64,000 bases of DNA, from NCBI GenBank assembly GCA_023078685.1, contig JALGAS010000010.1, forward strand, positions 434,001 to 498,000, given 5' to 3'. The notes beneath the pieces were generated by a model. That model did no database searches. It saw nothing but the letters and a program-made list of their open reading frames with translations, and was not told the DNA's origin. The position numbers and the translations under genes were made by a program. Each line of letters opens with the position of its first letter. The first letter of the stretch is position 1. Positions 2,551 to 56,030 of the stretch are shown piece by piece. Source of the stretch: Neopestalotiopsis rosae (taxonomy: Eukaryota; Ascomycota; Sordariomycetes; Amphisphaeriales; Sporocadaceae).

Positions 2551-4307
2551 CGTGTACGCATTCGCGGCTGATGCAACTTAATGAGTTTTCAGGCTCTGTA
2601 GTGACTTGGAGAAGAAAGACGGCAGGGGAAGCTGACAAAGCTCTTTACGTGGAGCGTCGGCGCATCCACAATTATAATAAATTACTTCCACCATGTTGAG
2701 TCGTCGTCTTGCCATTATGTTATATAACTCAAGGAATATAGCTTGGATTCCACATAATGTCGCATCGGAAATAATATTCAACTTTGTCATGATATCCAAA
2801 TCCCAGGATGCGTGCACAGACTGCACGAAATGCATGCATGTGCATCATGCCAATCCCGGAGAACGCGGGGAAACAAGGGGCAATGCAGCCAGACCATGTT
2901 CTCACAGTATTCGGCTAGAAGGATAGGCATTTGAATGAAACGCCATGATTTTGCTTGACACGGCAATGAGCTCTGTGCGCAAATCGAAGTCGTGTTTGTG
3001 AGGGCTACATCAACGTGACATGTTCATGCGCCAGGCTCATCCGAAGCCCTGTTTCTCTCCTTCCATCATCCTCGCTTATAGTTCCATGCTTGTTGTCGTG
3101 CGAGTCAGTCACAACTGAGTCATCCTTATTGTATAAGAGAACGGCTTAAAACCAGAAGTATGGTTTGACACGTGACAAATACCAACTGGCAGCAATTTGC
3201 GACCAGAAGCTTAAGATGAATCACGTAGGTTGGGCAATTATTCTCTTATTGTCTCCTTCGCGCAACATAACGTGTTTTGAGTTGGGATGACCTCGGCAAC
3301 AGTTCGGCTATAAGAAAGAAGTGAGTCTCTTCGCTAAATGATGACGGTGTATGGGTTGGTGTATCATTCTCCCAGTCTTTTCGCAGAGACCATATCAGGA
3401 GAAACGCCTCAATGTGGAGGAATGTGGGGTATTGCCCGCCCCCACTTCCGTTCAAAGTTATCAGAAGAAACACACAAAAAGACGTGTGAAGTTGCGCTGT
3501 TAAAGCCACACCCTTCAGCCACATAGGTATGTGGGGAGCTTCTACTTTGGCCAAGTCGGCATAACAGACGTGACATGAATTGTATGAAGTAGTATAACCG
3601 AGCTAAACACCGGCTATCTGGAACGCCAATTTGTGCTATTATCCACCAATGCATCTTCCTAGTAGATTCCTCAACGGACTCGTAAGCTCGCGGGCCTTGA
3701 TTTATCTACGAATCGATTGCCGGAATTGGACATTCGCGTAGTGGCCATGAGGCCCCTGGGTTTCATGACCTAACTTGTGCCAGTCACCTTGATGAGGGAT
3801 AGAGATTGACGAGACGAAAAGCCAAGAGCAACATTAGGTGCGATGTTCTGAGTAAATCTCGGCACCTATCGAGAGCCGTCTTTTACGACAACAAATGTGT
3901 ATTTGGATTTGGGCTTACCGCTCTGTAAAAACACCCGCTTGGCACTTTATGACCAAGCGACTGCGAGCCTGCGCTGTCCAGTCTAGATGCGTAATTGCCC
4001 CAGCGGCACCCGAATATTGTGTGGGGTAATTATGCATAGTCAGTATACTGGAGTTGAAGAACATGAGAGTAGGTAATCAGTCTAATGACCATCAACTTGT
4101 TCTTCCATATATTGCTTCTCCGCAAAGAGTGCAGGAATCAGTGATCTGGAGCTAGACAGCACTGGGTAGATATAGACTTGGAAAACAGATTCAAGCCGGG
4201 CCAGGATCGTATAAGCCCATTACTCAAAGTTTGTATTGCACCATCCTTTGATTTCTCGTTATGAATTTGCTTTCGAAGCGGTATTGATCAATCTGTCAGG
4301 TGCTGAA
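2551..4307. promoter_or_regulatory. Long intergenic promoter region with cluster motifs
   Basis: No convincing gene is seen in this 1.76 kb. It carries the first copies of the cluster element: TGTGGGGTA at 3423-3431 and 4020-4028, and a TGTGGGGAG variant at about 3532. The copy at 4020 is about 290 bp upstream of the P450 start. This is where the motif-bearing region begins, so it probably marks the left boundary of the co-regulated cluster. Confidence 0.55.
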
Positions 4308-6060
4308 ATGAATACTTCGGACTACAACATGGCCTTCCAAGAGATTCAGAATCGTTTCGAACAGGCGTTGAGGCGGAGTGAATCTTTTCACACTTACACT
4401 TGGATGCTAACTGCCATTGTCGCTCTCCTCTTCATCATTGCCTCATATCGTTTACTCTTTCATCCCCTTGCTCACGTGCCTGGTCCATTCCTCGCGAAGC
4501 TGACTGGTCTCTGGCGCGACGCTGGATACCGCCGCGGGAAGTGGCATGATGAGATATTACAGATTCATAAAAGATACGGCCGCATTGTTCGTATAGCTCC
4601 CAACGAGGTATCCATCGTGGATGAGTGGGCAATGAAGAACCTCTATGGCCACGGACACAACGCGCCCAAGACTGATTGGTACTCTGTCTGGGATCCCCCA
4701 AGGACAGCACCACAACTGTTTTCAGCATTGGATAAGAAGGTGCACGGCTTCCTACGCAAACGTGTATCAGGCGCATACTCAATGTCGGCAATTTTAAAAT
4801 ACGAGAGCTACATACAGAACTGTCTTGATCTTTTGCTCCAAAAGCTGACACATCACGCTGTTAAAGGCCCTGTGGATATGTCGGACTGGACCAACGCTTT
4901 TGCCTTCGATGTTGTTGGTGAATTAGGATATGGAGCCGAGCTGGGGATGCTGAGGACCGAAAGCGACGTCAACAATATCAGACGGGACATCTTCGGTGTC
5001 TTCAAGCTGCTGTCTTGCTTGGGCCACTTCCCCGGACAGGCGTGGATCCTCAACAATGCTGTTTCGACTGTTACCTTGAAGTTTCTTAATGCATCACCAC
5101 CGCTCACATCCTTTCGCGACTGGACGTTTAAGCAAGTTCAAGATCGTTTGGATCACATCAATGAAAGCAAACGCGAAGATATGCTCCAGCACTTCTGCCG
5201 TATGAAAGATGCGGATGGCAATTCAGTAAAGGTGGAGGAAATAGCCATTGAAGCAATGAACCTAATGTAAGTCATTCATACTGAATCGTGCTTACACAAC
5301 AAATCTGACAAATATCGCAGAGGCGCTGGTGCTGATACGACGTCTATTGGGATGCGAACATGCCTGTACTATGTGGCATCGAACCCCGATTGTTATCAGA
5401 GACTGCAGAAAGAAGTAGACGCGTTCTACGACGACAACAATCTCGACGCTCCGTTGACTTACTTGCAATCACAAAAGATGCCATATCTGCAGGCTGTCAT
5501 CAAAGAAGCCACGCGATTGCTGCCTTCTATCGTCTTTCAGCTCCTCCGATATACCCCACCCAACTTTACCGTACGCGGCGTGCATATCCCCGAAGGCACG
5601 ACTGTTGGGATCAGTCCCATAGCTCAGAACAGAGATACCGAGATTTGGGGTGACGATGCCAATGAGTTCAGACCGGATCGATGGCTTGAAGACACGGAAA
5701 AGGCGAAAGTCTTCGAAAGCGCTTCAATGACATTTGGAGGTAGCGGGCCAAGGACTTGTGTCGGTCGTAATATCGCCCTTGTATGTGAAAGCCCTTCATT
5801 TCTTTTTCCGCCCTTGAGTAGCGCCCGGCATTGATTACTTATTCAAGAAACCTTACTAACAATATTTTGCTGCATAGGTTGAGTTGCACAAGTTTCTCGG
5901 ACAATTCATGCGCAACTTCGACTTTGAGTTTGCAAACAAAGAAGAACCGTGGAGAATCATAACCTTTTGGTTTGCATACCAGAAGGATTTAATGATGCAT
6001 CTCAAACCACGAAAACACCTCAGTGAACAGCAAAGTCGTGAGGTCCACCAAGATACTTAA
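4308..6060 (+). CDS. Cytochrome P450, microsomal (paralogue A1)
   Basis: Exons are 4308-5266, 5321-5780 and 5878-6060 (533 residues). An N-terminal membrane anchor (about residues 25-45) is followed by the Pro-rich hinge HPLAHVPGP, the I-helix AGADTTS just after the first intron, the ExxR pair in KEATRLLP, a PxxW-like segment at DRWLED, and the haem loop ending RTCVGRN. The haem loop reads FGGSGPRTC, one residue longer between Phe and Cys than the usual FxxGxRxC. The closest relative in the window is the P450 at 35473-37242, with the same hinge, NEVSIVD block and I-helix. An upstream in-frame ATG at 4236 would add 24 residues; I prefer 4308 because the anchor then sits nearer the N terminus. 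The likely role is hydroxylation or demethylation of an aromatic substrate in the ER. Confidence 0.87.
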
Positions 6061-6639: not shown

Positions 6640-8480
6640 CTACTTAGCATTCACCTGTGAATCGTGCCACCAAAGGCGAAGCCTTTTTCCATACTTATAT
6701 AAGGGGACTGTCGTCAAACAGAAGGCAAGCTGAATTGCTCCGACGGTACAGAAAAACTTGACTACGCCCCAGCTAGCAATCCAATCATTGATGAAAACTG
6801 CGCAATAACCCATGGAAATGTCAGTGGATCGTTTGCGCCTGGGGTTTGATTTGTGGGAAGGTTGCCTGGCTTACATGAGAAGCCAAAAAACAAGAAGTTT
6901 TTAATGACCATGGTCACAACAAAAGCTTCAACGGCGACATATCGGTAGGCGTCGACAATGTAGGCTCCCACGGCAGCCATACATATCTGTCCTGCGGCGG
7001 TGGCAATGCCGTACATGGTAGAAACAGCCACAGCGCTAACACCATCCCTGATCATGAATCCAAATGGAAAATATGCCGCAATTGTTAGTACTAGTGCGAG
7101 GCCGACCAGGAACAATCGAAACTCGGGTTCGTAGAGGCCTCCGTTCTTGCGCGCAAAGAGCTCAATCATCGGGTCTGAGAGAATGGCGCAGAGCAATGAG
7201 CCCAAAGTGCCACCAACAACAGCGCCCGCCGACATATATCCCAGCTGGGCTGTATCAAGCGAATACGGCGGCGCAACGAATATTTGCGCAATGAGCAAGT
7301 TGAAAGCGACAAGCCAAAGGACAGGAAACGAGAAAAGGAATATGGCCCATATTACAGCTGGATCATAGAGGACCAAAAAGGGTTGCATAGTAAGCCTCCA
7401 GAATGGTACTGTGGAGTACGTGCCTGACCACAACTTTAGGCGTGCCCAGTACGTCTTGCGTTGTATCAATCTGCTGGTGGAAGTCTCCGTTCTGGCAATC
7501 CTCTCGGGATGCTCATTATGGGTAGCACTGGGCAAACCCAGCTTCTCGTTCAGCTGGTCAAGGCCCTGAAAAGAGTCAGTACGTCTCTTCTCATGTTAAC
7601 ATTGGAACGGAAACAAGATTAATCACCATACATTCTGAGAAGCGGTGTCGGTACTGTAGATATCTTCGCGCGTATAAGCAGTTTCAAAGCCGAAAAAAGC
7701 GGCCCACAGGACTCCCACACCCATAAACACAGCGAGAAGCAAGAAGATCCACCTCCACCCCAAGACCTCGGCGATCTTGCCGGAGGCCACTGGAGGCAGG
7801 GCACCCAGGCCTATGATTGCCGTGGTGACCACAGCGACGCGAACACCACGCTCATGAACATGGTACAAGTCTCCGACAATGACAAAACTCAAAGACTCAA
7901 ACATGCAGACACAGAATCCTTGAATGATGCGGGCACCGAGGAGAGAGTCATAGGTGTTGGCACGACCTCCCCAGAGGCATCCGGCGAACCCACAGCACAT
8001 TGAGAAGACGAGGGGGATCCTCCTCCCGAACTTGCGTGCAATGGGAGATATTATGATACCGAAGCATGCAGTGGCAAGCAAGCTATAGCCGGTAAGCAGC
8101 GAGACCTTGGTAAAGGGAACACCAAAGACAACGGTGAGTTCATAGGCGATTGGAGATATGATGGGGCCGATGCTATGGGCTTGTATCAGTCGCATCTCTC
8201 CTTCTTGGGAAGATCGCAACACGAAGACTCACCCGCCAACTGTAAGGATGGTGCAGTACGTATAGAGCAGGAATATGAGATCTCTCTGCCACAGTGGCCA
8301 ATTCAACGGGTCATTTGGATCATTTGAAGGCTGTGGCACGAGAATGATGGTCCTGCCGCCGTGGGAAGTCTTCTTGAGGTGATCGTGATGGGCCATAGAG
8401 TCTTCGACAGACTCCTCGAGTGGTACCGTGGCGGGTACATGCGCCGAGCTCGATCTGGGTTCAAAGATACCCCAAGCCAT
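6640..8480 (-). CDS. MFS transporter, DHA1 (drug:H+ antiporter-1) type
   Basis: Exons on - are 8480-8233, 8172-7632, 7565-6875 and 6797-6640. All junctions keep frame, and the last exon restores the helix FINDWIASW. The N terminus has the NDPLNWP signature of fungal HOL1-like DHA1 carriers. About twelve hydrophobic segments follow, with a long cytosolic loop around the start of exon 3. The conserved loop between helices 2 and 3 is RKFGRRIP. I chose the start at 8480 (MAWGIFEP), the usual start of this group; an ATG 27 bp upstream is possible. It probably moves the aromatic substrate in or a toxic intermediate out across the plasma membrane. The motif TGTGGGGTA at 9047-9055 is about 570 bp upstream. 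Confidence 0.87.
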
Positions 8481-10812: not shown

Positions 10813-13800
10813 TTGACGTATTGCTTCATTGTACACTGCATCGCGTGCTTGTCGTTCCTACCAACGAACGACGTGTCACCCGCTGCGGAAACAGTCGACA
10901 ACATCCCTGTAGTCCCTCGCAGGCGTCGACCAGGCGGTCAATACCATTGTAAATATTGCGTCAAGGTCTTCAAACGAAGTGAGCATTGTGTACGTCACGA
11001 ACGTAGCCACACATCCGAGAAGCCTTTTTCATGTCGCTACTGCCACAAGTCTTATGCTCGAAAGTAGGCATCTTATTTCATTAATGTCTTTCAACAGTCA
11101 CAAGTCTTCTTTTCCCCCAATTGCCTTAGACCATTCGTTACGAACCTACTTGCTGATTCTCTCATCGTATGAAAAAGGGACCTGGTGACGAGACACGAGC
11201 GGACGCTTCACGCCGCCGAACATGCCGAAGTGCTGAGCCGAGCGCAAAATTCGCGCCCTGAAACTGCCACTACCAAGCCAATCACCACCTCGGTGGAGGC
11301 AGATAATACCAATGAGCAAAGTCAAGACCCAATCCCCGAGAACTTTCCTTCGCCAGCAAGCGCCAGGTCGTCCAGGCATAGCAGCGATGATGTCGAGTCA
11401 GACTCCGCAACGACGGTCAGCGACGGCAATATAGATTGTGCTCCGGTGAGCGACATTCAGTGCTCAACTCAAGACCAATTCTCTGTGGTTGAACCAGCTC
11501 CAGACGCAAGCCACCCTTTGCCTGAATGTATCATGGGAGATACGCCGCAGTTTTCGATGATGAGGCCAATGGACGATTTCTGGGATTATAACTCGGCCAC
11601 ATTCAACGACGTCAACATGGTCGATCCTGGCGCAATGGAGGCCACTCAAGAAACAATTCCAAATCAAGAAATCCACAACAATCAGCTACTCTCTCCAGGA
11701 CAACAACAGACAGCGCAAAATCCGCAGTCCAACATTCCTCTTGCATTCTCGTCATCTTTGGGCCTCGGCTCAGGTTCAATGTCAGCCTATGGTATGCTTA
11801 ACAATCAGACGGTACCAGATCTCGATCTCTCTATGTGGTTAGGTTCTGCACCACCGCAGGACCTGAGACAAGATCAGGGGCCGAGCAGCAATTCAAGAGA
11901 GCAGAGTAACGTGGTCTCAAACGCACATCGAGATAACCTGCCCGTCTTGGAAAATCATATCCCAGGTCCTGCCTTTGCTCCATGCTTAAATAATGACACC
12001 TTTGCCTACATGTGTGCAGATCTTGCAGAGCGCCTTGAGGCACGGGACATCTCGCGAGAGCTGCCTAACGCCAGAATATGTCAGGGCTTCTTATCTAGCT
12101 ATGTCGAGTGCTTCCACGGTCATCTTCCAATCATTCATTGGCCAACCCTATCACTATCAACAACACCAAGTCCTTTAATTTTAGCCATTTGCTGCATTGG
12201 TGCGCTTTATCGCCTAGATCGCCGACGGGCACGGAGTCTATATGACATTGCGATACGGGCTCTATCACCAGTAAGTCTAGCTCCAAATCCACAGCTTTAT
12301 CACTGCCAAAGCTCATGTCAGAAAATGATTAGACTCTCGGAGCACAGTCCACGATCACAAAGAAAGATGACTACCCCCTGTGGGCCGTCCAGGCAAAGCT
12401 ACTTTTGTCTTATTTTGCTTCATTGAGTGGAGACCAGGAGTTAGCGTCTGCTATCATGGGCGAGCACGCCATGTATACCCTCGTAAGTTGGAGACCAAAT
12501 ATAAATTGAGTGTAGCAATATACGCTGACATCTCTGAAGATTTATGAAAAGAAAAGGCAGATTCTTGCAAAGGATAGCAGTGACACAGCCCGCCTTGATT
12601 GGTCCAGCTGGGCACATCGCGAATCATGGAAGAGGCTGCTTGGTGCAATGTATGTGCTCAGCGCCTTGTACACGATTATCTACGACGTGACGCCCAATTT
12701 CAATGCCACACAAGACCTGGCGATCGAAGTTTACCAAGAGAAACTCTGGAATGCCAACACAGCCATAGACTGGTCGCAATTGAAAATGATGGGGCAATCA
12801 CAGAATCCACTCACACTGAAAGAAATCCTGGAAGACATCATGGCTGGCAACAATAGGCGTCGCGGACTTGAAGCTGCGCCATACCAAGTTTCGCCCTTCT
12901 CTGCACTTGTGCTCATGCATTCTATGATCGTGCACATATGGCACGTCATGCAAGTAGCCCGTAGCTATGCTCAGATGTCCTCTACTTCAGATCCGTCTTA
13001 CGACTCGTTTGGTTTGAGCATCTTGGATGCCGAGTGGCGACGAATATCGAGATGTGATACACTTCTAAAGAGCAGTCCGGAAGGACTCAGTCATGGCTTG
13101 GAAGAGGATGAGGTGGCTTCGCTAGTGTTCAGCTCCAAGGCGATATTGCGCGTAGCCTTTACTAGGCTCTGTGGCGCTGGTTCGGCCTTCAACCGCCTCG
13201 CTTTTCTGACTCCAGATCCCGACGCGCTCGAAGCGGCCATCTGCTCATTTGCGAATGCCGATATGCAAAGGTCCCCACAGCTCCTGCGAGCGATCGCAAG
13301 TTCCATCGAAGGGCTCAGCATACCGATCAAGATGGGTCATATGGTCATACGCAAGACGGCAGCATTCCGGTGGAGTTTCGAGCAGGGCGCTGCGTATTGG
13401 GATATTAGTAAGTTCTCACTTTGTGATCGGATTCAATCGCGCAGAAACCAACAATAATCACGTATTCAGCTCTGTTTGTCACGAGATGGGTGCACTTACT
13501 TGAAATGGATGAATTGAGGGGAGTCGAACCAAACCCGGACGAGAAAGAGCTGATGACAACGCTGCGAGATCTTCTCCAGGAGGTTGACTACGACCCTGGA
13601 TGCGGAGAGTCTCTAGCAGCTGGACTGGCTCAAACATTTTCTTGGTTTCTTAAAGATGTAAGTACTTGGGAGGTTTCAACCATCTGAGAAACAAATAACT
13701 AACTCATATACAAAGGTCTGGGTTTGGAGCATCACACCGAGAATGGGAGCAGTGCTTGAGCAACTTGGAAGAGCCTACGAGAGTGCTCAATCAACGTATC

Positions 13801-13871
13801 GCCGCCAGTATTCCCTTAGCGCGCATACAGAAGCCTGCATACATAGATCTTTGGTTGTAGGCGGCATTTGA
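10813..13871 (+). CDS. C2H2 zinc-finger regulator with fungal transcription-factor domain (copy 1)
   Basis: Two adjacent C2H2 fingers (CKYC...H and CRYC...H; helices RSEHCVR and RKDLVTR) lie near the N terminus. A Ser/Pro/Gln-rich linker follows, then a fungal-specific transcription-factor domain (about 11980-13420). Introns include 11064-11177 (splitting the second finger), one after 12270, about 12483-12539, 13408 to about 13470, and about 13656-13716. The stop is at 13869-13871. The first 10813 codon is not ATG, and no in-frame ATG precedes the fingers in that exon, so the true start must lie in a small upstream exon. Candidate ATGs with compatible splice phase are at 10581 and 10665. The paralogue at 25471-28522 shares exon structure and all helix contact residues. 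It is a likely nuclear activator or repressor of this cluster. Confidence 0.83.
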
Positions 13872-13911
13872 TGACTAATTGTTTGAGTGGTTCACATGGC
13901 ATCTAGCTATG

Positions 13912-14366
13912 CTACGCAAAGCACATTTTCCAGGCTTGTGGCACTAACTTGACAGCATTGATGACCTTTTCGGCAATCTTGAAGCCCTCGAGGCCGGCAG
14001 GCATACCGCAGTAAATTGTCGCCGGAAGCAACGTCTCCCGTATCTCGACCTTGCTTGCCCGTTAATTAAGGCGCCCCGGACGTGGACTGCAATTTCCGGA
14101 CCCCTGCTCAAAGCACATAACATGGGAATATTCAGCACAGAGCGCTGTTGCCTTTCCAACTCCGGCCTTGACCAAACCGATCCTGAGCAAGCTTCCATTA
14201 CAGGCTCCTGTATCGGTCTGGCGAGATCAGAGGAGCCAGCCGCGAGTGAGGTGCCAACATATGCAGGTCCGGCGACCTCATAGCGAATTTGTAGTCCAAT
14301 GTCGAAGATTCTCTTGTGTGCTGCAGCAGCATCGCCGGTAGTGGTGAGCGCCTCGGCGGGTGCCAT
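13912..14366 (-). pseudogene. Frameshifted carboxymuconolactone-decarboxylase-like gene
   Basis: From the ATG at 14366 the protein matches the intact gene at 29440-29889 closely through IRYEVAGPAY, SVWSRPELERQQRS and HVRGALIN. At about 14058-14060 one base is missing compared with the intact copy. The frame shifts and ends in unrelated sequence at 13944. Read in the other frame, the rest of the family (conserved IYCGMPAG and GFKIAE segments) is still present and stops at 13912. So this is either a pseudogene or a single-base sequencing error. It is convergent with C2H2 regulator 1, with about 40 bp between their ends. The family decarboxylates gamma-carboxymuconolactone-like products; many fungal members have unknown substrates. 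Confidence 0.75.
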
Positions 14367-25470: not shown

Positions 25471-28400
25471 TTAGAGAAACGAGGATACGCAAGGGGAACG
25501 GAATGAAATAAACTTTTCATCGCGACAGTTTTCTTTGCTTATAATTTGAAACTTATCTTGTGTCTTTTTTCCCCTCTTGGATAGCAAATAGCTCCAAACG
25601 CGGCGGTAGACAGGGGAGAGGAAAGAAAAACTTACGTCGCGAAGAAGCCAAGACCATGTGCGGGCCATTCCCGCTGCAAGTGATTGCGTATGCTCCAAAT
25701 CGATATCTGTTTCGCTGAGGATATTGCGGACTTCTGTCAGAAGATCACATTCTGTTGAAGTGATTTCCACATTGCGCAATGCATCCATCTCTACACAATG
25801 TACCCACTTGGTGATGAAGAGTGCTGGATCGGCAGATGTTCAGATTAGTCTCGTGGTTCCCAAAAGAATCAGATTGCAGGAAACTCACCGGTGTCCCAGC
25901 ATGCTGCAGCATGCTCGACGCTCCAGCGAAAGGATGCAGTCTTTCGGACCAGCATGTATCCCATGCGGACCGGCACGCTCAGTCCTTCGAGCATATTCTT
26001 GAGCACATCGACAAGTTGTGGGCTTCGCTTCATGTGGATGGGTTCATTTGCGAATAGGGAAAGCTGAACGTCGATTGTACTTGAATCCTGCGCAAAAAGA
26101 TTGAATCGATTGAAATTAATGGCTGTTTTGAAGAGTTGACTATATGCAACTCTCAGAACAGATTGCGAGGCGGATATTGGAGATGTCACCAAAGACTCAT
26201 CTGGAGGGTCTAGTTTGTCTTTGGTATTTCCTGCAAGAAATGCTTTGCATCTCCCCAGAGATGTTGCCCCTAGATCAAGAATACGAGACGCGAACGTTTT
26301 GCTTTCGTCGGGGGATAGATAGGCGACTTGAGTGCAGGTTTGCATGACTTGAACAAGCTGCCAAATATGGACGACAACGCCATGGGTCAGAACAAGCATA
26401 GCAAATGGCCAAACATGGCCCGGCTCTGCTTGACCGTCCGCGTTGCCGAGCAAAATGCATTGGAGAACATCCTTCATTGTGCACACGCTCTGGTTCGACT
26501 CGTTGACTCTCTGTGCACGGAGCTCGAGCCAGCTGGAAGCTGTCGTTGCGTTCCAAAGGTCCTCGTCTTCCAAGGCTTCGTACTCCAAGTCGGTTGTTGC
26601 ATTGAAGCACGGATTAATACCGTATATAATCATATAAAGTGTACTCGAGATGTAGATGGCGCCGAGGACTCGTTTCCAAGTTTCTCGCCTGGTCCATTTG
26701 GTCCAGGATAGTGTAGACGATTGCATGTTGTCTTCTGCGAGTGATTGTCTCTGCTTACCATAGACCTTCGGGCAACAGTTAGCGAGTGAAGGTGAGAACG
26801 TGGGGGTTTCGAACAAAGCCTTCTGGTCACATCCTTGGGAGAAACTCACCAACGTATAAAATGCATGGTCATTCATCGACGATGATGTCAGATCCTCCTC
26901 GCCACTCAACATGGCAAACATGGAAAGAAGAACCTTGGCCTGCACTGCCCACAATGGGACATGTCGTGTGAAGGTTTCGTGTGTTTGTGTAGAAGGAAAA
27001 GTCTACATGACTGTCAGTGAGGTATCTCATAGGCCGTCGTATTGTAACAAGTACAATAGCTGCTTACTGTGGTGAAACCTCGCAATGACAAGTCATAGAG
27101 AGCCCGAGCCCGCCGGCGATCAAGTCGGTAAAGAGCTCCGATACTGCACATTGAGAATATCAAAGGACTGGGCGTCGACCCTATGTCCAGCGTTGGCCAG
27201 TGAATCATGGGGAGGTGTAGATCGAAAGATTCAATGTAGCTACTCAGGAAACTTTGGCAGAGAAAGGCGTTGGGCAGCTGCTTCACCCGATCGTCACTGT
27301 CAAGGCGACACGCGAGGTCCTTGCTCAAAACTGCGAATACGTCCTTGTCGAGTGTCAAGTGTGGTGTTGAAGATGGACTGTTTTCGCGCAGGCGCGGCAA
27401 AGGCCGCACTGGCTTTTGCGCAATTGATGCACGACCACTGGCCTCCGGAGGTTTCTCATTTCCTTGCGTCACATGAAAGTCTGGCCGATCAGAAGTTCCG
27501 CCGAAGAAGCTGGGAGTATCATTGTGCCCTGAAAGTGAGGAGGATATCTGTTGGTGAGACTGATTCATGTCTGCCGAGAATGAAACCCCTGGTGCACTGG
27601 CAGAGCCTATCTGTTCTGCCATCGTATGAGATAGAGCAGGTATTTTCGATGCAAGAGACATCGAGGCTGGGTTGAGTTGGGCCGAATCCTGCTGTGAATG
27701 AAGTTTGGGACGCGTTTCTGGCAGTTCTCCAACCGTAGGTATTGTTTGTGGCAGATTGTCGGCTGAGGTATGTGCTGTTGTATCATGATCATACACGCCG
27801 AGACCATCCACTCCATCGAAAACGAAATCATTGAGATCGTCGAGAAATGTTGAAATATCTGGCCCCATGGGCAAGATGAGGTCCTCATGAGATACCAAGC
27901 CCGTTATTTCAAAATCCATATTATCAATTGGCGTCGGCAAAGTTTGACCTGGGGCATTGATCGAAACGAAGTCATCTGTGGAGCGCTGGTCGGAATTGGC
28001 GGTTCGCGTGCCTTTCCCCTGTTCTCGTGAATGCTGCGGCGATTGATCGGGAAGCACCGAATGAGCGCCTGAGGTTGGTGAATGATCTTGTGTAGAGCTC
28101 GGGCTGGTGAGCGAGCTACCACTTGATCGATTATCATTCTGCTCTTGGGCGTGAAGCGTTCGCTCGTGTCGGACGACTAAATCCCTACAGGGCGGACGGC
28201 AGAGCTCTGGTCAGCTATAATGTGCTACAGTCTAGGGCCCATGTACCCAGGTATGCCTGCAAAGCTTGGTGAGGGAATGATGGAATGACTGCATCGTAGC
28301 CTAAACTTACTTTCTTGAGTATGACTTCTTGCAATACTGGCAGGAAAAGGGTTTCTCGTGGGTGTGCGTACGCTCATGGCGCAAGCGGTGCTCGCTGCGT

Positions 28401-28522
28401 TTGAATACTTTTGAGCAGTAGTCACACTTGTACTGTCGACCTTGCCGGCGCCCGGTGCCCCTTGCCTTGACCCCTGGTTGCGGCGCTGTTGCCGGGCTCG
28501 GTTCTACAAGCGCGGATGCCAT
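25471..28522 (-). CDS. C2H2 zinc-finger regulator with fungal transcription-factor domain (copy 2)
   Basis: Exons on - are 28522-28311, 28184-27068, 27002-26850, 26765-25889 and 25823-25471. Two C2H2 fingers (helices RSEHRLR and RKDLVVR) occupy about residues 33-85, with the first intron inside finger 2 exactly as in copy 1. An acidic, Ser/Gln-rich linker follows, then the fungal regulatory domain with the shared blocks SSYIESF, HLPMIHWPTL, IGALYRLDRRRAR and LWAVQAKVLLS. The last exon of copy 1 has no clear equivalent: after TWSWLLRD a GTAAGT donor is present but no matching acceptor is obvious, so the frame is read through to 25471. The 3' end is therefore uncertain. It is a likely DNA-binding regulator of the cluster. 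Confidence 0.85.
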
Positions 28523-38880: not shown

Positions 38881-38932
38881 AATTTCAGGTACTATATGAG
38901 AAATATTGTTCCGGAGAGCAGGTACATAGGTA

Positions 38933-41400: not shown

Positions 41401-41900
41401 GGATGCTCTTGGACAATGTATGGTTCAATTCATGTTCTACTTGGTGTATCAATCCGTGATTGTTCCCTCTTCATCCGCCAATGTCAAGTGAAACTTCTGA
41501 TAGGTGTGTATCTTACGAAACACAATATGCCAATTGCACCTAAACGTTTTGCCGGAAGTGCGCGTTACCCCCCATACAACTTGTCCGCCTAGGTGGGGTC
41601 ACAGCACCCATTAACTGTTATCCCCGCTGTACCCCCCTATAATGCATTCCCCGCAAACGTTCCATGCGGCACGCGGATCGACCCGCGCATTTCGTCTTGC
41701 GTGCGACGCAGCACACATCGTAATACCAATTAGTTGAGTTCTCAGTGGGCAATTTCTTGGAAAAGGTGAGTTCTTACACAAGATACTTATCTTGGCTGTT
41801 TATATCTTTACCCACGAGATTCCATTTTTCTAAGTTTGTCCCAAGTCTCTTGGTAGAGTCGATTGATCCCAAGTACACGATACACTGTACACAAAACGAC
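41401..41900. promoter_or_regulatory. Promoter of P450 B2
   Basis: TACCCCCCA is at 41566-41574, GGTGGGGTC at about 41592-41600, TACCCCCCT near 41630 and TTCCCCGCA near 41648. No gene is seen. Confidence 0.45.
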
Positions 41901-48480: not shown

Positions 48481-48878
48481 GATTAATAAAGCAGGAGGCA
48501 GTTTGAATTATGACAGACAAATACGGGATGAATGTATTGTAGATAAGCTAAGACGTTCTGGAAAGAAGAGGGAAACAACGCTCCAGGGAATGGAATACTA
48601 TTTGTTCTGCTGCATGGTACAGCTATGTAACGTCCTAGTCGCATGGTTTCCGTTGCGGTGTGGCGAGACATGGGGTACTTCATTGTCTATAGTCTCGGTC
48701 TCAATTCAACCCCATACTATATGCACGACATGATGTGGGGTAAAGCGGTGACTAAACCTAGGTTTCTACTGCGGAATTGCTTCAATTACGCCTTTGGGTC
48801 CCATGGCTCATGTTCACATTTTGGGTGTAAAATTTCGAGGCTGAAGCAAGTCAGGGCCATGGTGGCGGTGCATTGCCT
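48481..48878. promoter_or_regulatory. Promoter of the BBE-type oxidase
   Basis: TGGGGTA lies at 48671-48677 and TGTGGGGTA at 48734-48742. No gene is supported. Confidence 0.45.
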
Positions 48879-50693
48879 TCAATTGAGCAGACTAATACGG
48901 CCTGCTGCCAGACTCTTGAATACAGGGTCTAATGATGACTTGTCCATACGGTCAAGGATTTCAACCTGTTCCATCCTTCGCCGGAGGCTCACTCCTTCTC
49001 GAGCCAATGTACCGGAAGTACCGTACGGGCCAAAAGCGTAGTCATACGTTTCAGGGTGCCATAGTGACTCGGCATTGAGAAATTGAAGCCATTTGTACCG
49101 CATTTCTTGCCCTGTCCGTTTGGCCCCAGGATTCGTGTTCATAACGAACCCATCGAACAGTAATAAGAGATCCACGGCATGATGTGCACCAGAAGAAGGC
49201 TGCCACGGATTGGTCTCGTCGACTAGATAGCGGTAGACTGATTTGTTCGAGTTCTGCCAAAGCCGTTGCAGGCGATATATGGGGAGAACGAATTTGTAGT
49301 CATTGATGAAATCGAGTGCTCCGAACCGGCAGGATGCGGACCGCCCGGGGTGGATATGATAGAGATCTCTGAGCCGTACGCTGTCTTCACCCCCTAGGTC
49401 AAACGCAGCAATGATATCTCGGTCGTCCAGATCATGAATTCCCGCTTGCCATATGGCGGACTGCACCAATGTCAGCGTATTGAATCGCCGACACCAAACG
49501 CAACTCACCTCTTTCTGCACATCACTCAAGAGTAAAGACTGTCCTTCGCCAAGTGCCTCCTCCCAATTTGCGAAAGTCGAATCGTCCTCGAGGAAAAAAG
49601 ACTGTACTTCAGAAAGCTCTATAGCACGGACGAGCTGAGTCACTGTTGCAGAACTCAAGTTCGCGCCAGGATCGAGTGTCTTCAGCTTTTCCAGAATCAA
49701 CTGTCGCAATGCTGTCACATTCTGAGCAGGCTGAGGTGGTGAAAGATGCAATGACCCTGACAACAAGGCAAACTGTTGTAAACGGGCACCTGTGACCATG
49801 TGGGCATGACAGTACACAGCTCCGGCACTTTCACCTGCCAATGTAACTTTATCCTAACATGCCGCGCCCAATTCAGCATTCCAATTTTTATTCGCGTTGA
49901 CAACAACCTGGTGCATGAATAAGTACTCACGGGATCTCCGCCAAAATCAGCTATGTGCCGCTGAACCCACTTCAATGCTGACGACTGGTCTTGCAGTGCG
50001 AGGTTCTTTTCGCCATTGCCATCTCCCAAGGCGAAAATGTTTAATCTGTATTGCACAGTGACACAGATGACCGGTTTCCCCGCGGTCACCGAGTCCTCCA
50101 CAAGTCTTGTCATGTCTTTTTTTCCACGATCGCAGTCAGAACACACTCCAGTGGGGGACTCGCGCTCTCAATCAGACATACCGCATACACCAGATGCACT
50201 GCTGCCAAATGTTACTGCTTGCGAGCCGCCTGGGACTTCTATTAGCAGATATCGAGACAGACGCAGTTTTGCATTTGCTTACCATGAATCCAGACCAGGA
50301 CGGGCAACCCATTGCCATCATGGGGATTCTCGGGTACGAATACATCAAGGTTGGTGCATCGAAATTCATCTTCAAGTTCAGGCGGAGGCGATTGTGACGG
50401 TGGGATGCGCAATAGACATCCAACGTCTAGCTGAAGTTGAGGGCATCGTGGACTAGACAAGTCATGATGAGTGCACGTTTTCATTTTCCGCGCAAGCGCG
50501 CTTTGAAAAAAACGAGGCCGTACCCGAATTTGGTGCAGTCGAGGCTTTTCGGGTAAGTCTGTATTGGTTCGCACCGAGCAAAGCGCCGCGGAATCGTGCC
50601 GTAGGGTATCCCACGGAACACCGTCACCGAGGGCGACTGTTCTACCCCACTGAGGCTGCTGTTCAGAGTGGTGTGGTAGTGGGAAGCCGACAT
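48879..50693 (-). CDS. Type-B carboxylesterase (copy 1)
   Basis: Exons on - are 50693-50524, 50452-50283, 50229-50182, 50115-49931, 49853-49509 and 49460-48879 (499 residues, usual family length). Features are the VFRGIPYG start block, PVLVWIHGG oxyanion hole split by an intron, an YRLNIFALG block, and the nucleophile elbow GESAGAV. The later Asp/Glu and His regions are in the last exon (QPSSGAHHAVDLLLLF supplies a likely catalytic His). No signal peptide is seen, so it probably works in the cytosol. The likely role is hydrolysis of an ester-linked aromatic. It shares the divergent promoter with the homogentisate-dioxygenase-like gene. Confidence 0.86.
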
Positions 50694-51151
50694 TGCGTAC
50701 AATGACCAGGAAATATTGAAATGCTGGGCAGTTTCTCGCGGCTTACCGGTATATCACAAATCCTCAAAAGGAACCATGAGACCCCATGTTTGTGGGTAAT
50801 ATATGCTGATTAAGTTCTTGTTAAGTATGGCTCGGTATGCTTGATAAGTTCTTGCTAAGGTTATTTTTGAAACCGGCCCCCCTCCCCCCACATAGCATCT
50901 GCCGTAGTTTTGCGGGTAAATCGAAGCGAACGAGCATTCTGTAGCCGTGGTTGGCGTATGGTGGGGTGTTGTCAAGACGCTAACATCGCGGGGATAGAGG
51001 CGCAGTGGCACGGGGAGTTTGACGGCTGACGGCTCTCGACATGGCCATTGAAGAGATATATGAATCCGAAGTTGCCGTGAATTTCTCTCGCATTTGACTG
51101 TTCATTGGAACCAGACAAGTATCCGTCACAAGGCATAGCAAGTAGTCCACA
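50694..51151. promoter_or_regulatory. Divergent promoter between carboxylesterase 1 and the homogentisate-dioxygenase-like gene
   Basis: TCCCCCCACA lies at about 50883-50892 and GTGGGGTG at 50961-50968. No other feature is seen. Confidence 0.45.
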
Positions 51152-52655
51152 ATGTCTTCACAGGACTTTCAAAATATATTCCACTGGGCTTCTACGCAAA
51201 AGGATGGAAGCATCCCATCCTTTGCCACACGCCCAAATGACCCATACAAGTATCAGCCCGGCTTCAACAACAACTTCGAATCCGAGGCAATCCCGGGCAC
51301 AATTCCTCGCGGCCAGAACAGTCCCAGATCGATTCGATTTGGCCTGTATGCTGAACAGATGACGGCGTCTGCATTCGTCGCGCCTCGTCACCTCAATAAA
51401 AAGGCCTGGCTGTACCGCTCCCGGCCGGCTGTGGCGCACCAAGGTTTTGTGAGTTCAAGAGTCGAAACCATCTCTAGTAGTTCATAGCTAACTCGAACAA
51501 ATCACACAGACTGAATTGCCAGACAATGCCGACACAGAATCAAGTTTTCTTCCATTGAACTCTCGTGTCCATATCTCGCCGACCCAATTGGCGTGGAAGC
51601 CATTTGAGATCCCATCTGGCCAAGACGTGGATTTCGTAGACGGCCTTAAAACTATTGCCGGCTCCGGAGATCCCACGCTGCGTGAAGGCCTGGCAACTCA
51701 CGTTTTTCTCTGCAACAAGAGCATGACCAAGCGAGCCTTTGTCAATTCCGACGGTGACTTTCTCATTGTGCCTCAGCAGGGTGCCCTCGACATCCAGACC
51801 GAGTTTGGTTTTCTGTACGTGCAGCCGGGCGAGATCTGCGTCATCCAGCGCGGACAACGATTTCGCGTCAGCGTCGAGGGTCCGACCCGAGGCTACATCC
51901 TCGAGGTCTGGGGCTCCTGCTTTGATCTGCCCGAGCTCGGCCCCCTCGGCGCAAACGGCCTCGCCAATGCCCGCGACTTTTTGCATCCCGTTGCCGCCTA
52001 CGAGGTGACCAAGGACGACCCTTGGAACATCGTCTACAAGCTGGGAGGCAAGTTCTTTAACAGCACCCAGCGGCACTGCCCCTTTGACGTGATTGCGTGG
52101 CACGGCAACTACGTCCCCTACAAGTACGACCTCACAAAGTTTGTCAATGTCGGCTCCATCTCCGTCGACCACATTGACCCGTCCATCTTTTGCGTGCTGA
52201 CGGCCCGGTCGCGCGACCCCGCCGCGCCCCTGGCCGACTTCCTCATCTTCTCCCCGCGCTGGGACGTCGCGTCGCACACGTACCGCCCGCCCTACTACCA
52301 CCGCAACTGCGCCTCGGAGCTCATGGGCCTCATCTACGGCGACTACGGCGGCCGCTCGGATGACTTCCAGCCGGGCAGCGTCTCCTTCGAGTGCGGCTTC
52401 GTCCCGCACGGCGTGGCCTATGAGCAGTTTGCCGAGGCCTCCAAGGCGGACCCGCCCGTGATGCAAATCTCCCCCGCGTCCATTGCCTTCATGTTTGAGA
52501 GCAGTCGTGCCTTTACCATTACAGATTATGCCTGGAACAGCGACAGGAAACATGAGCATGACCCCAAAATGTGGGATGACTTGGTTGATAACTTTTCAAA
52601 CCACAAGATTGAAGTGGACGAGATCCTGGCTAAACTTGGTAAGGGCAGCGCTTGA
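51152..52655 (+). CDS. Homogentisate-1,2-dioxygenase-like enzyme
   Basis: Exons are 51152-51448 and 51510-52655 (480 residues; typical family about 440-450). The cupin fold shows the family blocks WHGNYVPYKYDL, VDHIDPSIF.VLTA and RPPYYHRNCASELMGLIYG. The three Fe(II) ligands are kept: His of YYHRN, Glu of SELMG and His of VPHG. Where true homogentisate dioxygenases have PHGPD, this protein has PHGVA, and the sequence around it (GFVPHGVAYEQF) is diverged. No maleylacetoacetate isomerase or fumarylacetoacetase is in the window. So it may cleave another 1,4-diol (a substituted gentisate or hydroquinone) and not homogentisate. The downstream SDR and alpha/beta hydrolase could process its product. 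Confidence 0.87.
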
Positions 52656-53062: not shown

Positions 53063-54192
53063 ATGACGACCTACGTTTTCCATGACGATGAGTTGGAATC
53101 TTTGAGGGACAAGTCTGTTGTTGTGATCGGATGCGCAACAGGGATCGGCCGTTCTACCAGTCTTATAGCTCACAGTACGTTGAGAGTTCCCTATATCGTC
53201 ATGGAGAGACTCTGACATTTCATCGACAGAATACGGAGCCAAGCTCGCCCTGGGAGATTGGAATGAGGAATTGGGGGGCGAATTGGCCGCGGAGCTAGGA
53301 GAGTGAGTGCTGACAATAGTCATCTACACCAGCCTGAATTGACTTGAGATGCACGATGCTCTAGGCAAGTTCTGTTCCGCAAGTGCGACGTTTCTGTTTG
53401 GACGGATGTTGTTGCACTGTTTGAAGATGCTTGGGAGCGTTTTGGCCGCATTGATGCAGTGGTGTCGAACGCTGGTGTCAACAATGAGGATTTCCTAACC
53501 TCCGTCATTGACCCTTCTACGGGTCTTTTGTCGCCGCCGGACCTCAAGCCGCTCGAGATCAATCTGACCGGTAAGTCGAACAATGAATGTTTTTCGGGTT
53601 CAAAGGCAAAGATCGCCGTCTGACACAAATTCTTGTAGGAATGATCTATGCTGTCAAATGCGCCGTGCATTATTTTGCCAGGCAACCCGACACGCGGTGC
53701 CAGATCATCATGACTGGGTCGGCGGCATCATTTTTGGATACACCGCCGCTGTATTTGTACTGCACAGCCAAGGCAGGTCTTCTTGGGCTTATGCGCGGCC
53801 TAAGAAGTCAATTGATCAAGAAGAACATTACAATCAACCTCGTTTGTCCGTGGCTGACAGGTGGGTAATCATATTTACCGGTTCTTGTTAATGCGACTCG
53901 GTATGGCTTCAAATTCTTGCTAATTTACACTTTCTTCTTGCCAGTCACACCCATGCTGCTGCCCGAGATGGTGTCCGTCTGGGATGGGCTACCCTCAAAT
54001 GAGCCCGAGGGCGTTGCGCGTGCGCTACTGTTGCCCATCTGCCGACCGGAAATCAATGGCAAGGCCTTCTTCGTTGCCGGAGATGAGATTGTCGACTTTG
54101 AGGACACTCTGGTGGCCGCGCAAGATCAATGGATGGGGGAGCAACTCAGTCGCAATATCAATGAGGGGCAGCGAAGGTTGCTCAGCGAATGA
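53063..54192 (+). CDS. Short-chain dehydrogenase/reductase
   Basis: Exons are 53063-53174, 53230-53302, 53365-53570, 53639-53860 and 53945-54192 (286 residues). The cofactor loop is GCATGIGRS, the NNAG-like motif is SNAGVNNED, and the active site is Ser of MTGSAAS with YCTAK. Acidic Asp in LGDWN at the end of beta-2 suggests NAD(H) preference. It is a classical cytosolic SDR. Lying directly downstream of the homogentisate-dioxygenase-like gene, it may oxidise a dihydrodiol or reduce a ring-cleavage ketone; this is inference. Confidence 0.88.
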
Positions 54193-54839
54193 GCCGCTGC
54201 AGAAAGCAGTCTTGTCAGCTCCCAGTCAAGCGCTGGGAAGCCTTCAAGATACCCGACGGCCAGCTAATACACCACCATAACCAATGTTCCAACATGTGTT
54301 TAACCCGCGTCATAAGATCATACACCCTTTGCACTCCTCCGCGTCGATGAATTAAATGGCTCCATCGCATGTCTTCCAATTGTTCTTCATTGCTACCCCA
54401 CATGCCAGGTACCGGTTGCTGGTTCATACCCACCGGAAGATACCCCACGATGTGCCTCACCTGCCCCCGCCAATCGCCAAGACCACATATTACCCCACGA
54501 ACTGTTACCCCCCATTGGCGATTCCAGCTGTACCGCAAGTTGGAAATTTCTTGAGCCTGCAGTACCGGGGGCCGAGGTCAAGACCCAAGGGCTTGAGGGT
54601 ATGGTTTGTATCGCTGTTCAATCGCCATACCTTTTGGAGAGTACGTAGGTGTGCAATTATTGTGGTGTACGTTGAAAGCTCAGCCGTAGTCTGGTCGGTT
54701 CTTAGTATCACAGATCTTGGAAAGATCAGTCATGATTGAGTACGTTGAGATAGTCCAAGCCACGGCCCCAGCGACCGTAGAACAATAGGTGCGAAATATC
54801 ACAAAAGTCGCTATGGCTTCTTTGTCCCTATGTTCTGGC
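54193..54839. promoter_or_regulatory. Cluster of motif copies between convergent genes
   Basis: TACCCCACA (54394-54402), TACCCCACG (54441-54449 and 54491-54499) and TACCCCCCA (54505-54513) occur within 120 bp. They lie between the 3' ends of the SDR (+) and the alpha/beta hydrolase (-), where no promoter is expected. Frames at 54356-54739 show no domain. Either an unseen transcript starts here or the sites act at a distance. Confidence 0.5.
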
Positions 54840-55706
54840 TCATGCTTTCCTCATTTGCAACGAATTATAAAATTCCAGAACCAGCTCCTGGCATTCTTTG
54901 CTTCCAGTGACAAAAATCTCATGGCCCGGCGCATCAATGACCTGCACCTGTGCCCCGCGCACCTGCTCGCCCACCTGGAGCATGGACTCCACGCTTATGA
55001 CGGCGCTATTCTTGGGCGCCAGTATGAGCATCGGCACGCTAATCTTTGGCAGAAATGGCCGCGCATCAAGGCTCGACAGGAACTCTGCATAGCCAGCCAA
55101 GCCCTCTGGGTGCGATTCTGCCACTCGGTCTATCCACCACAGCGTGTAGGCCGCGTCTGTCGAGGCCATTGTCCCGGGCAACTTGACCAGGGCCTCTGCC
55201 CAGCCGCGCGACCCCAATTGGCGACAGGCAGTCGGCCAGTCGCTGCAGCCAAAAGCAAACGTCTTTAGGGCTGGCGGAGGGAGGTGAGTCGGCGACGAGC
55301 AGATGGTCAGCGACAGCAGCCGGTCAGGGTAGAGAGCCGCCAGCGCTTCGCCGAGCATACCGCTGGTCGATTCACCTATGAAATGTACCTTTTCAATGCC
55401 GAGCTGGTCCAAAGTATCGACAATTTCTCCAACGACTGTCTGCAGCATATAGTCGTAGCGTGCTGACGCCGCGGGATAAGACGAGTGCCCATGCCCACGC
55501 AAATCCCGCCGGATGACCCGAAAGTGTCGGGCAAGGGCCGGGACCCAGTGGTACCAGTGCTCCACGGTGCGGCAGAAACCGTGCTGTATGAGGATCGTAT
55601 CATGAGCCTTCCAGGGATCAGCAAAGTCGTCCGAAATGTAGTGTGACTTTTGCCCGTTGGCATGCTCCACGAATGTGCGCCCGTTCTCGTCCCGGATCAA
55701 TGGCAT
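54840..55706 (-). CDS. Alpha/beta hydrolase (enol-lactonase / ring-cleavage-product hydrolase type)
   Basis: This single exon of 288 residues carries the oxyanion-hole segment LIQHGF, the GHGHS loop, the nucleophile elbow GESTSG, the acid in the LAPKNSAVI region, and the catalytic His in PGHEIFV. It resembles 3-oxoadipate enol-lactonase and meta-cleavage-product hydrolases in layout. No signal peptide. It follows the SDR in a convergent pair and shares a motif-bearing divergent promoter with carboxylesterase 2. It probably hydrolyses an ester, lactone or C-C bond of a ring-cleavage product. Confidence 0.87.
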   Translation of the reverse strand: MPLIRDENGRTFVEHANGQKSHYISDDFADPWKAHDTILIQHGFCRTVEHWYHWVPALARHFRVIRRDLRGHGHSSYPAASARYDYMLQTVVGEIVDTLDQLGIEKVHFIGESTSGMLGEALAALYPDRLLSLTICSSPTHLPPPALKTFAFGCSDWPTACRQLGSRGWAEALVKLPGTMASTDAAYTLWWIDRVAESHPEGLAGYAEFLSSLDARPFLPKISVPMLILAPKNSAVISVESMLQVGEQVRGAQVQVIDAPGHEIFVTGSKECQELVLEFYNSLQMRKA

Positions 55707-56030
55707 GATTGCTTTTGCATCGCTAGCTTACAGGACGTAACCAGTCATCCGAATATTGCAACCAAAAGAGTGTACAATAGAAGCTTATATGCCATACCAT
55801 ATGCCTGCGATACGGAAGTGCCATTGAGATACTGCCCACACAGATTTGGGGTAGATGGCGACCGTTAGTGGGTAAACCAGGGTCGTGGGGTGGTAATGCG
55901 CTGTAATCTGCCTAAAGATTGAGGGCCCCCCACACTGGGGACTGGGACAGGTTATAAGCAGTCCGATTCAAACGAGGAATTGCTTACCCAGCTAAACCTA
56001 AATACTTGCTTCGAACCTCGAATAGCAAAG
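55707..56030. promoter_or_regulatory. Divergent promoter between the alpha/beta hydrolase and carboxylesterase 2
   Basis: TGGGGTA is at 55847-55853, CGTGGGGTGG at about 55884, and CCCCCCACA at about 55925-55933. This is the last promoter in the window with the element, so it marks the right edge of the co-regulated block. Confidence 0.5.

Follow-up and report, generated by a model that had tools for sequence, protein, structure and literature searches.

A recurrent nine-base element and two candidate C2H2 regulators in a catabolic-looking gene cluster of Neopestalotiopsis rosae

Genes of the cluster

The window, the whole 64,000-nucleotide stretch analysed here, contains a gene cluster with three putative transcription factors among a larger set of enzyme genes. 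The genes look catabolic, with hydroxyquinol dioxygenase, maleylacetate reductase, homogentisate dioxygenase and P450 candidates pointing to aromatic breakdown. The nearest solved structures to a piece of the intradiol dioxygenase (21597-22079) are hydroxyquinol 1,2-dioxygenases, and those nearest to a piece of the Fe-ADH (23167-23721) are an iron-containing alcohol dehydrogenase followed by two maleylacetate reductases. The nearest proteins to the homogentisate dioxygenase-like product are from Dactylonectria (89%) and Colletotrichum (88%).

4308-6060, plus: cytochrome P450a
6644-8480, minus: MFS transporter
10900-13947, plus: TF1, two C2H2 fingers and PF04082; exon to 11063, intron, resuming at 11178; predicted start provisional
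13944-14450, minus: carboxymuconolactone decarboxylase (CMD) copy, frame broken
16172-17533, minus: cytochrome P450b
18370-20607, plus: Zn2Cys6 transcription factor, third cluster regulator
21228-22400, minus: intradiol dioxygenase
23035-24297, minus: Fe-ADH
25836-28450, minus: TF2, two C2H2 fingers and PF04082; exon to 28311, resuming at 28184; ends approximate
29440-29889, minus: carboxymuconolactone decarboxylase family protein (CMD)
30356-31321, minus: metallo-beta-lactamase-fold (MBL) hydrolase 1
31884-33230, minus: MBL-fold hydrolase 2 (MBL2), 25% identical to the first; ends approximate
33515-34879, minus: FAD_binding_3 monooxygenase
35473-37242, minus: cytochrome P450a2, 40% identical to P450a
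37862-38880, plus: 3-hydroxyisobutyrate dehydrogenase-like 1 (HIBADH1)
38933-40029, minus: 3-hydroxyisobutyrate dehydrogenase-like 2
41745-43743, plus: cytochrome P450b2, 40% identical to P450b
45128-46478, plus: intradiol dioxygenase-like protein whose start, judged from the sequence, resembles a signal peptide
47056-48480, minus: FAD_binding_4 oxidase
48879-50742, minus: carboxylesterase (COesterase)
51152-52655, plus: homogentisate 1,2-dioxygenase-like (HGD)
53063-54192, plus: short-chain dehydrogenase (SDR), named from similarity to the satellite SDR described below
54840-55706, minus: alpha/beta hydrolase

Abundance and placement of the element

The 9-mer TACCCCACA is found exactly at all 11 positions reported for it in the earlier note and nowhere else in the window, with six copies on the minus and five on the plus strand. 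These copies and selected matches to the shorter word TACCCCAC are located as follows.

3423-3431, minus: TACCCCACA site 1, upstream of P450a
4020-4028, minus: TACCCCACA site 2, 288 bp upstream of the P450a start
9047-9055, minus: TACCCCACA, divergent gap between MFS transporter and TF1
14913-14921, minus: TACCCCACA, upstream of the CMD copy
15255-15263, plus: TACCCCACA, upstream of the CMD copy
15274-15282, plus: TACCCCACA, upstream of the CMD copy, 19 bp from the 15255 site
20824-20831, minus: TACCCCAC (as TACCCCACC), convergent gap between the Zn2Cys6 factor and intradiol dioxygenase
25436-25444, plus: TACCCCACA, gap between TF2 and Fe-ADH
30165-30173, plus: TACCCCACA, 276 bp upstream of CMD
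33272-33279, plus: TACCCCAC (as TACCCCACG), gap between MBL2 and the FAD monooxygenase; TACCCCGCA at 33250
37429-37437, minus: TACCCCACA, gap between P450a2 and HIBADH1, within a 17-bp palindrome formed by TACCCCA at 37421 (plus) and 37431 (minus)
37496-37503, minus: TACCCCAC (as TACCCCACG), same gap
48734-48742, minus: TACCCCACA, 254 bp upstream of the FAD_binding_4 oxidase
50643: TACCCCAC inside the COesterase gene
54394-54402, plus: TACCCCACA, between apparently convergent genes; TACCCCACG at 54441 and 54491

The 11 copies in the window compare with a mean of 0.38 in 100 dinucleotide shuffles, none of which reaches 11. The whole genome (53.77 Mb) holds 244 copies, every one of them placed, compared with 307 copies of the pattern read backwards, and TACCCCACA is therefore not a general promoter element. 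At the cluster the 11 copies lie within 51 kb, and the best other non-overlapping 52.5-kb stretch holds five; with 0.23 copies expected per 52.5 kb, the Poisson probability of at least 11 is 1.7e-15. The element thus survived the genome-wide check of whether its word is as common elsewhere, its enrichment being concentrated at the cluster.

The enrichment is also confined to a narrow word. Among 1295 8-mers tested by word counting, TACCCCAC ranks first, with 18 occurrences in the cluster and two in 211 kb of flanks, and in non-coding DNA only the counts are 16 and two (28-fold). Of the 27 one-base variants of the 9-mer, each is present at most four times in the cluster. The surrounding bases vary from copy to copy, which indicates that the copies are not derived from one repeat. 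Promoters of the duplicated gene pairs are scarcely alignable, and the best alignment among all gaps compared, that of the CMD pair (25 bp, E 0.023), starts at the 9-mer in both.

All 11 TACCCCACA copies lie between genes according to hand-corrected gene models, as had been claimed, with none inside the gene bodies, which span 34 kb; under a cruder coding mask, one of the 11 comes out as coding-like. The further proposal that variants occupy almost all remaining promoters is reasonable though imprecise, as TACCCCAC, YACCCCRCR or TCCCCCAC (loose classes modelled on the earlier note's own variants) is found within 1 kb upstream of 19 of 24 approximate gene starts, compared with 7.0% of random 1-kb flank stretches, and TACCCCAC alone at 9/24 compared with 0.7%, in a tally that leaves out the satellite SDR, counts divergent-gap sites for both genes, credits HGD with a site within the neighbouring esterase gene and includes COesterase2, just outside the cluster. 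No site of any class lies within 1 kb upstream of Fe-ADH, TF2, P450b2, the secreted intradiol dioxygenase or COesterase, an exact TACCCCACA copy standing 1.1 kb before Fe-ADH, and the gaps upstream of TF2 and of several other genes have no listed site. Four of the 16 intergenic TACCCCAC copies (20824, 54394, 54441 and 54491) are in convergent gaps (2.5 kb), and in our gene models the density of the word per kb is 1.61 for convergent, 0.78 for tandem and 0.61 for divergent gaps. Its density in promoter-bearing gaps is not above that in convergent gaps, which speaks against a pure promoter rule. Taken together, there is good support for a regulatory element shared across the cluster because the enrichment is concentrated at the locus, in non-coding DNA and on one narrow word; its designation as a promoter element is not fully borne out, given the sites in convergent gaps.

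The window flanks (0-3 kb and 56-64 kb) are free of TACCCCA, in agreement with the earlier note. The 52 kb given there are probably not the limit of the regulon. Beyond the left end of the window, two TACCCCAC copies are found at -13402 and -13281, and since both lie upstream of an SDR gene that shares 43% identity with the SDR of the cluster, the regulon likely extends to this satellite gene, about 17 kb left of the first cluster site.

Candidate regulators and competing explanations

TF1 and TF2 are 38-42% identical and carry two adjacent C2H2 fingers at the N-terminus, with helices, read across splice junctions, of RSEHCVR/RKDLVTR in TF1 and RSEHRLR/RKDLVVR in TF2. PF04082 profile scores are 25.7 and 20.1 bits for two pieces of TF1, the second below the cut-off of 23, and 34.1 bits for TF2. 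TF1 is the only close relative of TF2 found in the genome, and the closest relatives of TF2 are on metagenome contigs. TF1 matches structure 2adr, as does the Adr1 finger region over residues 1-59. The DNA-contact set of Adr1, R, E, H and R in finger 1 with R, D, L and R in finger 2, is the same in TF1 and TF2. Further finger proteins of the genome may share these residues; outside the cluster there are 34 finger matches, of which 12 were examined, three of these ending within finger 2.

The enrichment of the word, its specificity and its placement between genes, together with the finger residues and the gene content, suggest that TGTGGGGTA/TACCCCACA is probably the binding site of TF1 and TF2, the two-finger C2H2 regulators that the cluster itself encodes. 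With R, E, H and R at helix positions -1, 2, 3 and 6, finger 1 would read GGG, and finger 2, with R, D, L and R, would read GTG, so that both fingers together would recognize 5'-GTGGGG-3', the reverse complement of CCCCAC, with the outer T and A of the site adding specificity. An aromatic substrate or intermediate could serve as the inducer, with the PF04082 domain of TF1 and/or TF2 permitting activation of the genes adjoining the sites, across the cluster and at the satellite SDR about 17 kb away, possibly through a division of labour between the two factors. A more specific and rather doubtful reading is that TF1 and TF2 are diverged paralogues that use one shared 9-bp site as a two-input switch (e.g., activator and repressor, or two inducers) in a partly duplicated cluster. 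In such a switch, genes would retain the site while the remaining promoter diverged, including the gene about 17 kb beyond the cluster.

Carbon catabolite repression offers another explanation, as sites for CreA/Mig1 are expected in a catabolic cluster and GTGGGG is compatible with their consensus, SYGGRG. The genome encodes a protein at C1:565523 with helices RLEHQTR/RSDELTR, presumably of the CreA type from this signature. However, SYGGRG hexamers are not enriched as a class in the cluster. GTGGGG is strongly enriched (p 1e-7, against a background of 211 kb of one contig, as for the other enrichment P values, and for a word already singled out in the earlier note), GTGGAG shows a weak excess in non-coding DNA (20 vs 52, 1.64-fold, p 0.041 uncorrected; overall p 0.13), and the other six are not enriched. 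Among the four GGGG-type hexamers GTGGGG alone is clearly enriched, with p values for GCGGGG, CTGGGG and CCGGGG of 0.059, 0.063 and 0.58, or 0.16, 0.14 and 0.54 in non-coding DNA. The GGAG-type hexamers GCGGAG, CTGGAG and CCGGAG show no enrichment, nor do AACCCCAC and GACCCCAC, which for CreA are equivalent to TACCCCAC, and CreA sites are an unlikely account of the element. The TACCCCAC copies near C1:565523 resembled a second regulon, a reading set aside because the protein there is the one with the CreA signature and the stretch examined at that locus spans 8 kb.

The sites could also belong to the wider regulon of the genome's Adr1-like protein (C1:3511802), whose contact residues, REHR/RDLR, are identical to those of TF1 and TF2, and the Adr1 site is given as NRCCCCM in the available part of PMC10653825. 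A global factor would use the word genome-wide, yet the genomic copies are fewer than those of the backwards control and there is one very dense locus, which makes this quite unlikely.

Zn2Cys6 proteins usually read CGG triplets, and CGG is at 1.02-fold in the non-coding DNA of the cluster and absent from the 9-mer. Binding by the cluster's Zn2Cys6 factor is thus very unlikely, the more so as the cluster also encodes a C2H2 pair whose contact residues match the site, although Zn2Cys6 proteins are the usual fungal pathway-specific regulators (PMC5746545, in part).

Chance or compositional clustering without function is hardly credible given the Poisson probability and the concentration in non-coding DNA on a single word. 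In its favour, the second-densest 9-mer group (C11:4463055-4507644, five copies) indicates that small groups may lack a regulon: in the 55 kb examined there the CCCCAC core is at background (19 vs 83 in 211 kb of C2 flanks), and no regulator was seen and no C2H2 finger pair by pattern search. TACCCCAC (6) and TACCCCA (12, where the C2 flanks would predict about 5) are nevertheless somewhat high in that stretch, and such counts at a locus lacking a C2H2 pair weigh against TF1 and TF2 as the binders.

Significance and relation to known systems

A pathway-specific C2H2 regulator is termed unusual in the accessible text of PMC5746545, fungal pathway regulators being generally Zn2Cys6, and the sites of the C2H2 regulator HxnR are described in excerpts of PMC8478523 as predicted, not experimentally determined. 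The locus offers a natural candidate site with strong statistical support, TGTGGGGTA, for the HxnR/Adr1-type C2H2 class together with a sequence set for testing, and the motif can point past the apparent edge of the cluster to a likely member of the regulon. The titles and abstracts in a partial literature search report no CCCCAC motif in any fungal catabolic cluster, which does not prove absence; PMC3774644 contains the letters CCCCAC once. Judged from its sequence, the cluster most likely adds a clear new case to a known fungal mode of switching neighbouring genes together, with the tag as the docking site of the two zinc-finger regulators encoded within it.

In Fusarium graminearum, cluster-specific promoter motifs are reported for 19 secondary-metabolite clusters (PMC4198257, excerpts), a likeness in that a word is over-represented in the promoters of one gene cluster. 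Those clusters are biosynthetic, whereas the present one looks catabolic and its candidate binder is named from finger residues. TACCCCA fits the Adr1 site of Saccharomyces and Candida. However, TTGGAG, contained in the ADH2 site that serves as an Adr1 probe (PMC2527678, in part), is not enriched in this cluster (0.96-fold; TTGGGG 1.26-fold). The Adr1 targets named in the accessible portions of PMC10653825 and PMC2527678 are ethanol, glycerol, fatty-acid or sterol genes, whereas TF1 and TF2 are located in the cluster that they are thought to control. HxnR, which regulates the nicotinate-inducible hxn clusters of Aspergillus nidulans, shares with TF1 and TF2 the architecture of two C2H2 fingers and PF04082 and is likewise encoded within a catabolic cluster; its predicted site, 5'GHGGGG, is present in most target promoters (PMC5746545, PMC8478523, both in part). 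The present cluster differs in its two paralogous factors and its aromatic instead of nicotinate breakdown genes, and in that GTGGGG is enriched while GAGGGG (1.13-fold) and GCGGGG (1.46-fold) are not clearly so and the outer T and A are fixed.

Enrichment of the element at the locus

The repeated 9-mer, TACCCCACA, is a real element and specific to this locus. The 11 positions listed for it by an earlier note are all exact, with no further copy anywhere in the window, and dinucleotide shuffles of the window contain a mean of 0.38 copies, none of 100 shuffles reaching 11. The window covers bases 434001-498000 of contig C2, and its genes point to a filamentous ascomycete. The whole-genome count (53.77 Mb, 17 contigs) is 244 versus 307 for the backwards control, and the word is thus not a general promoter element. 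All 244 copies were located, split by the following base (47 T, 57 C, 67 G, 73 A), and the element withstands the comparison of its genome-wide frequency with that at the locus: a sliding 52.5-kb frame finds 11 copies in the cluster, five at the next separate place and 0.23 expected. The second densest group, with these five copies (C11:4463055-4507644, L025-L030), has 6 copies of the 8-mer form TACCCCAC and 12 of TACCCCA in 55 kb, over which CCCCAC is not in excess and no C2H2 pair was seen; it may be due to chance or be a weaker group of another kind.

The cluster (3.4-55.95 kb) was compared with 211 kb of flank, including 100 kb fetched on each side; this single stretch and the whole-genome counts for chosen words are the base of comparison. 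TACCCCAC is the top word among 1295 8-mers tested (18 cluster vs 2 flank, p 3e-11; 16 vs 2 in non-coding DNA only, 28-fold), and TACCCCA is the top word among 5504 7-mers (28 vs 18). Each of the 27 one-base variants of the 9-mer has at most 4 copies in the cluster versus 11 for TACCCCACA. Directly 5′ of CCCCAC in the cluster, TA is favoured, CA (p 0.019) and TC (p 0.026) are mildly enriched, and AA, GA, TG and TT show no enrichment.

Gene content, site placement and limits of the proposed regulon

The cluster genes look catabolic for aromatic compounds. For a segment of the intradiol dioxygenase (21.2-22.4 kb) the nearest solved structures are hydroxyquinol 1,2-dioxygenases, and for one piece of its neighbour, an iron-type alcohol dehydrogenase (Fe-ADH), an iron-containing alcohol dehydrogenase followed by two maleylacetate reductases; taken together, these structural matches suggest that the cluster encodes the hydroxyquinol branch of aromatic degradation. 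Further genes include homogentisate dioxygenase-like (HGD), carboxymuconolactone decarboxylase (CMD)-family, MBL-fold, HIBADH-like, FAD_binding_3 and FAD_binding_4 members, as well as esterases, four P450 genes and one transporter. Several form diverged pairs (identity 38% for the regulators TF1/TF2, 40% for P450a/a2, 40% for P450b/b2 and 38% for HIBADH), and the CMD pair is 72% identical over 88 residues. The CMD copy beside TF1 (13944-14450, minus strand) matches the one at 29.4 kb over 88 residues (about 72% identity), then shifts frame, and looks broken. The upstream gaps of paired genes scarcely align: in a comparison of 19 gaps (E up to 1), the top hit is a 25-bp stretch shared by the two CMD gaps (E 0.023), which begins at a 9-mer in both. 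P450b and P450b2 share 17 bp in their gaps (E 0.31), also on CCCCAC sites; matches among unrelated gaps have similarly weak scores.

Gene models came from a home-made predictor hand-corrected with Pfam hits, and gene starts are approximate. By these models all 11 copies of the 9-mer lie between genes, as had been claimed (a cruder mask makes one coding-like), as do 16 of the 18 TACCCCAC copies, and the 34 kb of gene bodies contain no 9-mer. Nearly every cluster promoter was also said to have a site. Of 24 starts, 9 are preceded within 1 kb by TACCCCAC and 19 by TACCCCAC, YACCCCRCR or the looser class TCCCCCAC, versus 0.7% and 7.0% of random 1-kb flank stretches; the five starts lacking any such site are those of Fe-ADH, TF2, P450b2, the secreted intradiol dioxygenase and COesterase. 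Fe-ADH has an exact 9-mer 1.1 kb upstream, and the site counted for HGD sits within an esterase gene. Against a strict promoter rule, convergent gaps (2.5 kb in total) account for four of the 16 TACCCCAC copies between genes, or 1.61 per kb versus 0.78 in tandem and 0.61 in divergent gaps. Three of these four (54394-54491), all in the same orientation, lie in the gap at 54193-54839 between two apparently convergent genes, where a gene may have been missed or wrongly oriented, or an antisense promoter may be present.

The sole TACCCCAC copies in the 211 kb of flanks, at -13402 and -13281 (negative positions being left of the window), are 274-395 bp ahead of the start (-13676) of a short-chain dehydrogenase (SDR) gene, which also has one TCCCCCAC 197 bp before its start and whose protein is 43% identical to the cluster SDR over 229 residues. 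To its left, a divergent monooxygenase and P450 have two TCCCCCAC in between.

-18595 to -13676 (14-19 kb left of the window; L009, C2:414001-424000): FAD_binding_3 monooxygenase, P450 and SDR genes

We read this satellite region, from its sequence, as an outlying part of the same regulon, and the cluster may extend to these genes, with sites near the SDR and perhaps near the other two. The regulon border would then not be at 3.4 kb: of the 52-kb regulon described earlier, enrichment over the cluster stands, and the left limit is passed by the satellite SDR with its two TACCCCAC. This gene, discovered through its sites, is excluded from the tally of 24 starts (10 and 20 of 25 with it). Right of the cluster, no TACCCCAC occurs in 108 kb.

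Candidate binding proteins

The cluster contains two paralogous PF04082 regulators, each with a pair of C2H2 fingers encoded by an exon that precedes the Pfam-scanned part:

10900..13947, plus strand: TF1
25836..28450, minus strand: TF2

A regular second finger results from one junction in TF2 and from one of two possible junctions in TF1, the alternative removing five helix residues, DLVTR. The resulting helices are RSEHCVR and RKDLVTR in TF1 and RSEHRLR and RKDLVVR in TF2, and the chosen junctions are supported by the Colletotrichum homologue P0006 (RSEHCIR and RKDLVTR). Residues at -1, 2, 3 and 6 are R,E,H,R in finger 1 and R,D,L,R in finger 2, a contact set identical to that of Adr1 (RQEHLKR, RRDLLIR); the Adr1 finger region matches structure 2adr, as does TF1. 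In the zinc-finger recognition code, R,E,H,R specifies GGG and R,D,L,R specifies G-T-G. Finger 1 would thus read GGG and finger 2 GTG, giving the target GTGGGG; the outer T/A of TGTGGGGTA would add specificity. The element is most likely a site for the cluster's own Adr1/HxnR-type pair TF1/TF2, whose binding is predicted here from finger residues.

The genome has 37 finger matches, 3 of them in the cluster, and 12 of the other 34 were read; in three of these (L032, L038, L041) the sequence stops within the second finger. CreA-type and Adr1-like proteins were picked out by their fingers and named after the signatures of those factors. Both TF1/TF2 contact sets also occur in the Adr1-like protein, 1 of the 12 read outside the cluster, and further proteins may bind the same core; the only close relative of TF2 found in the genome is TF1. 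Elsewhere, TF2 has a 78% identical homologue, P0002, on a 102,951-base contig, as well as homologues in Colletotrichum and Coniochaeta. Use of the sites by a global factor such as the Adr1-like protein would account poorly for a single dense locus. CreA should also use GCGGGG, CTGGGG and CCGGGG, yet none is enriched at p < 0.05 in all or in non-coding DNA; GTGGAG, which CreA would also use, shows weak enrichment in non-coding DNA (p 0.041). Over all DNA, AGGGGG (p 0.017) and TGGGGG (p 0.035) are weakly enriched; these three p values are uncorrected for word number. For the Zn2Cys6 factor of the cluster, CGG triplets would be the expected target, and they show no enrichment in its non-coding DNA. 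On another contig, a C2H2 gene (C10:7098357-7098945, L032) has a finger-2 intron like that of TF1/TF2 and, roughly 450 bp ahead of the exon with its fingers, a copy of TACCCCACA that may be there by chance.

Comparison with Adr1 and HxnR

The TACCCCA of the cluster fits the Candida Adr1 motif NRCCCCM, backed by ChEC-seq and reporter disruption (PMC10653825). The yeast Adr1 ADH2 probe (PMC2527678) differs in containing TTGGAG; neither this word nor TTGGGG is enriched in the cluster versus the 211-kb flank, and the cluster site would therefore be a GTGGGG-preferring variant of the Adr1 type. A perfect 17-bp palindrome (37421-37437, TACCCCA-ATG-TGGGGTA) in the divergent gap at 37243-37861 recalls the paired Adr1 site of that probe. 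HxnR, which shares the architecture of TF1/TF2, controls the Aspergillus nicotinate clusters; according to PMC5746545 and PMC8478523, its site is predicted by the authors to be 5′GHGGGG and has not been determined by experiment. The locus is most likely an unusually clear new example of this already known fungal arrangement.
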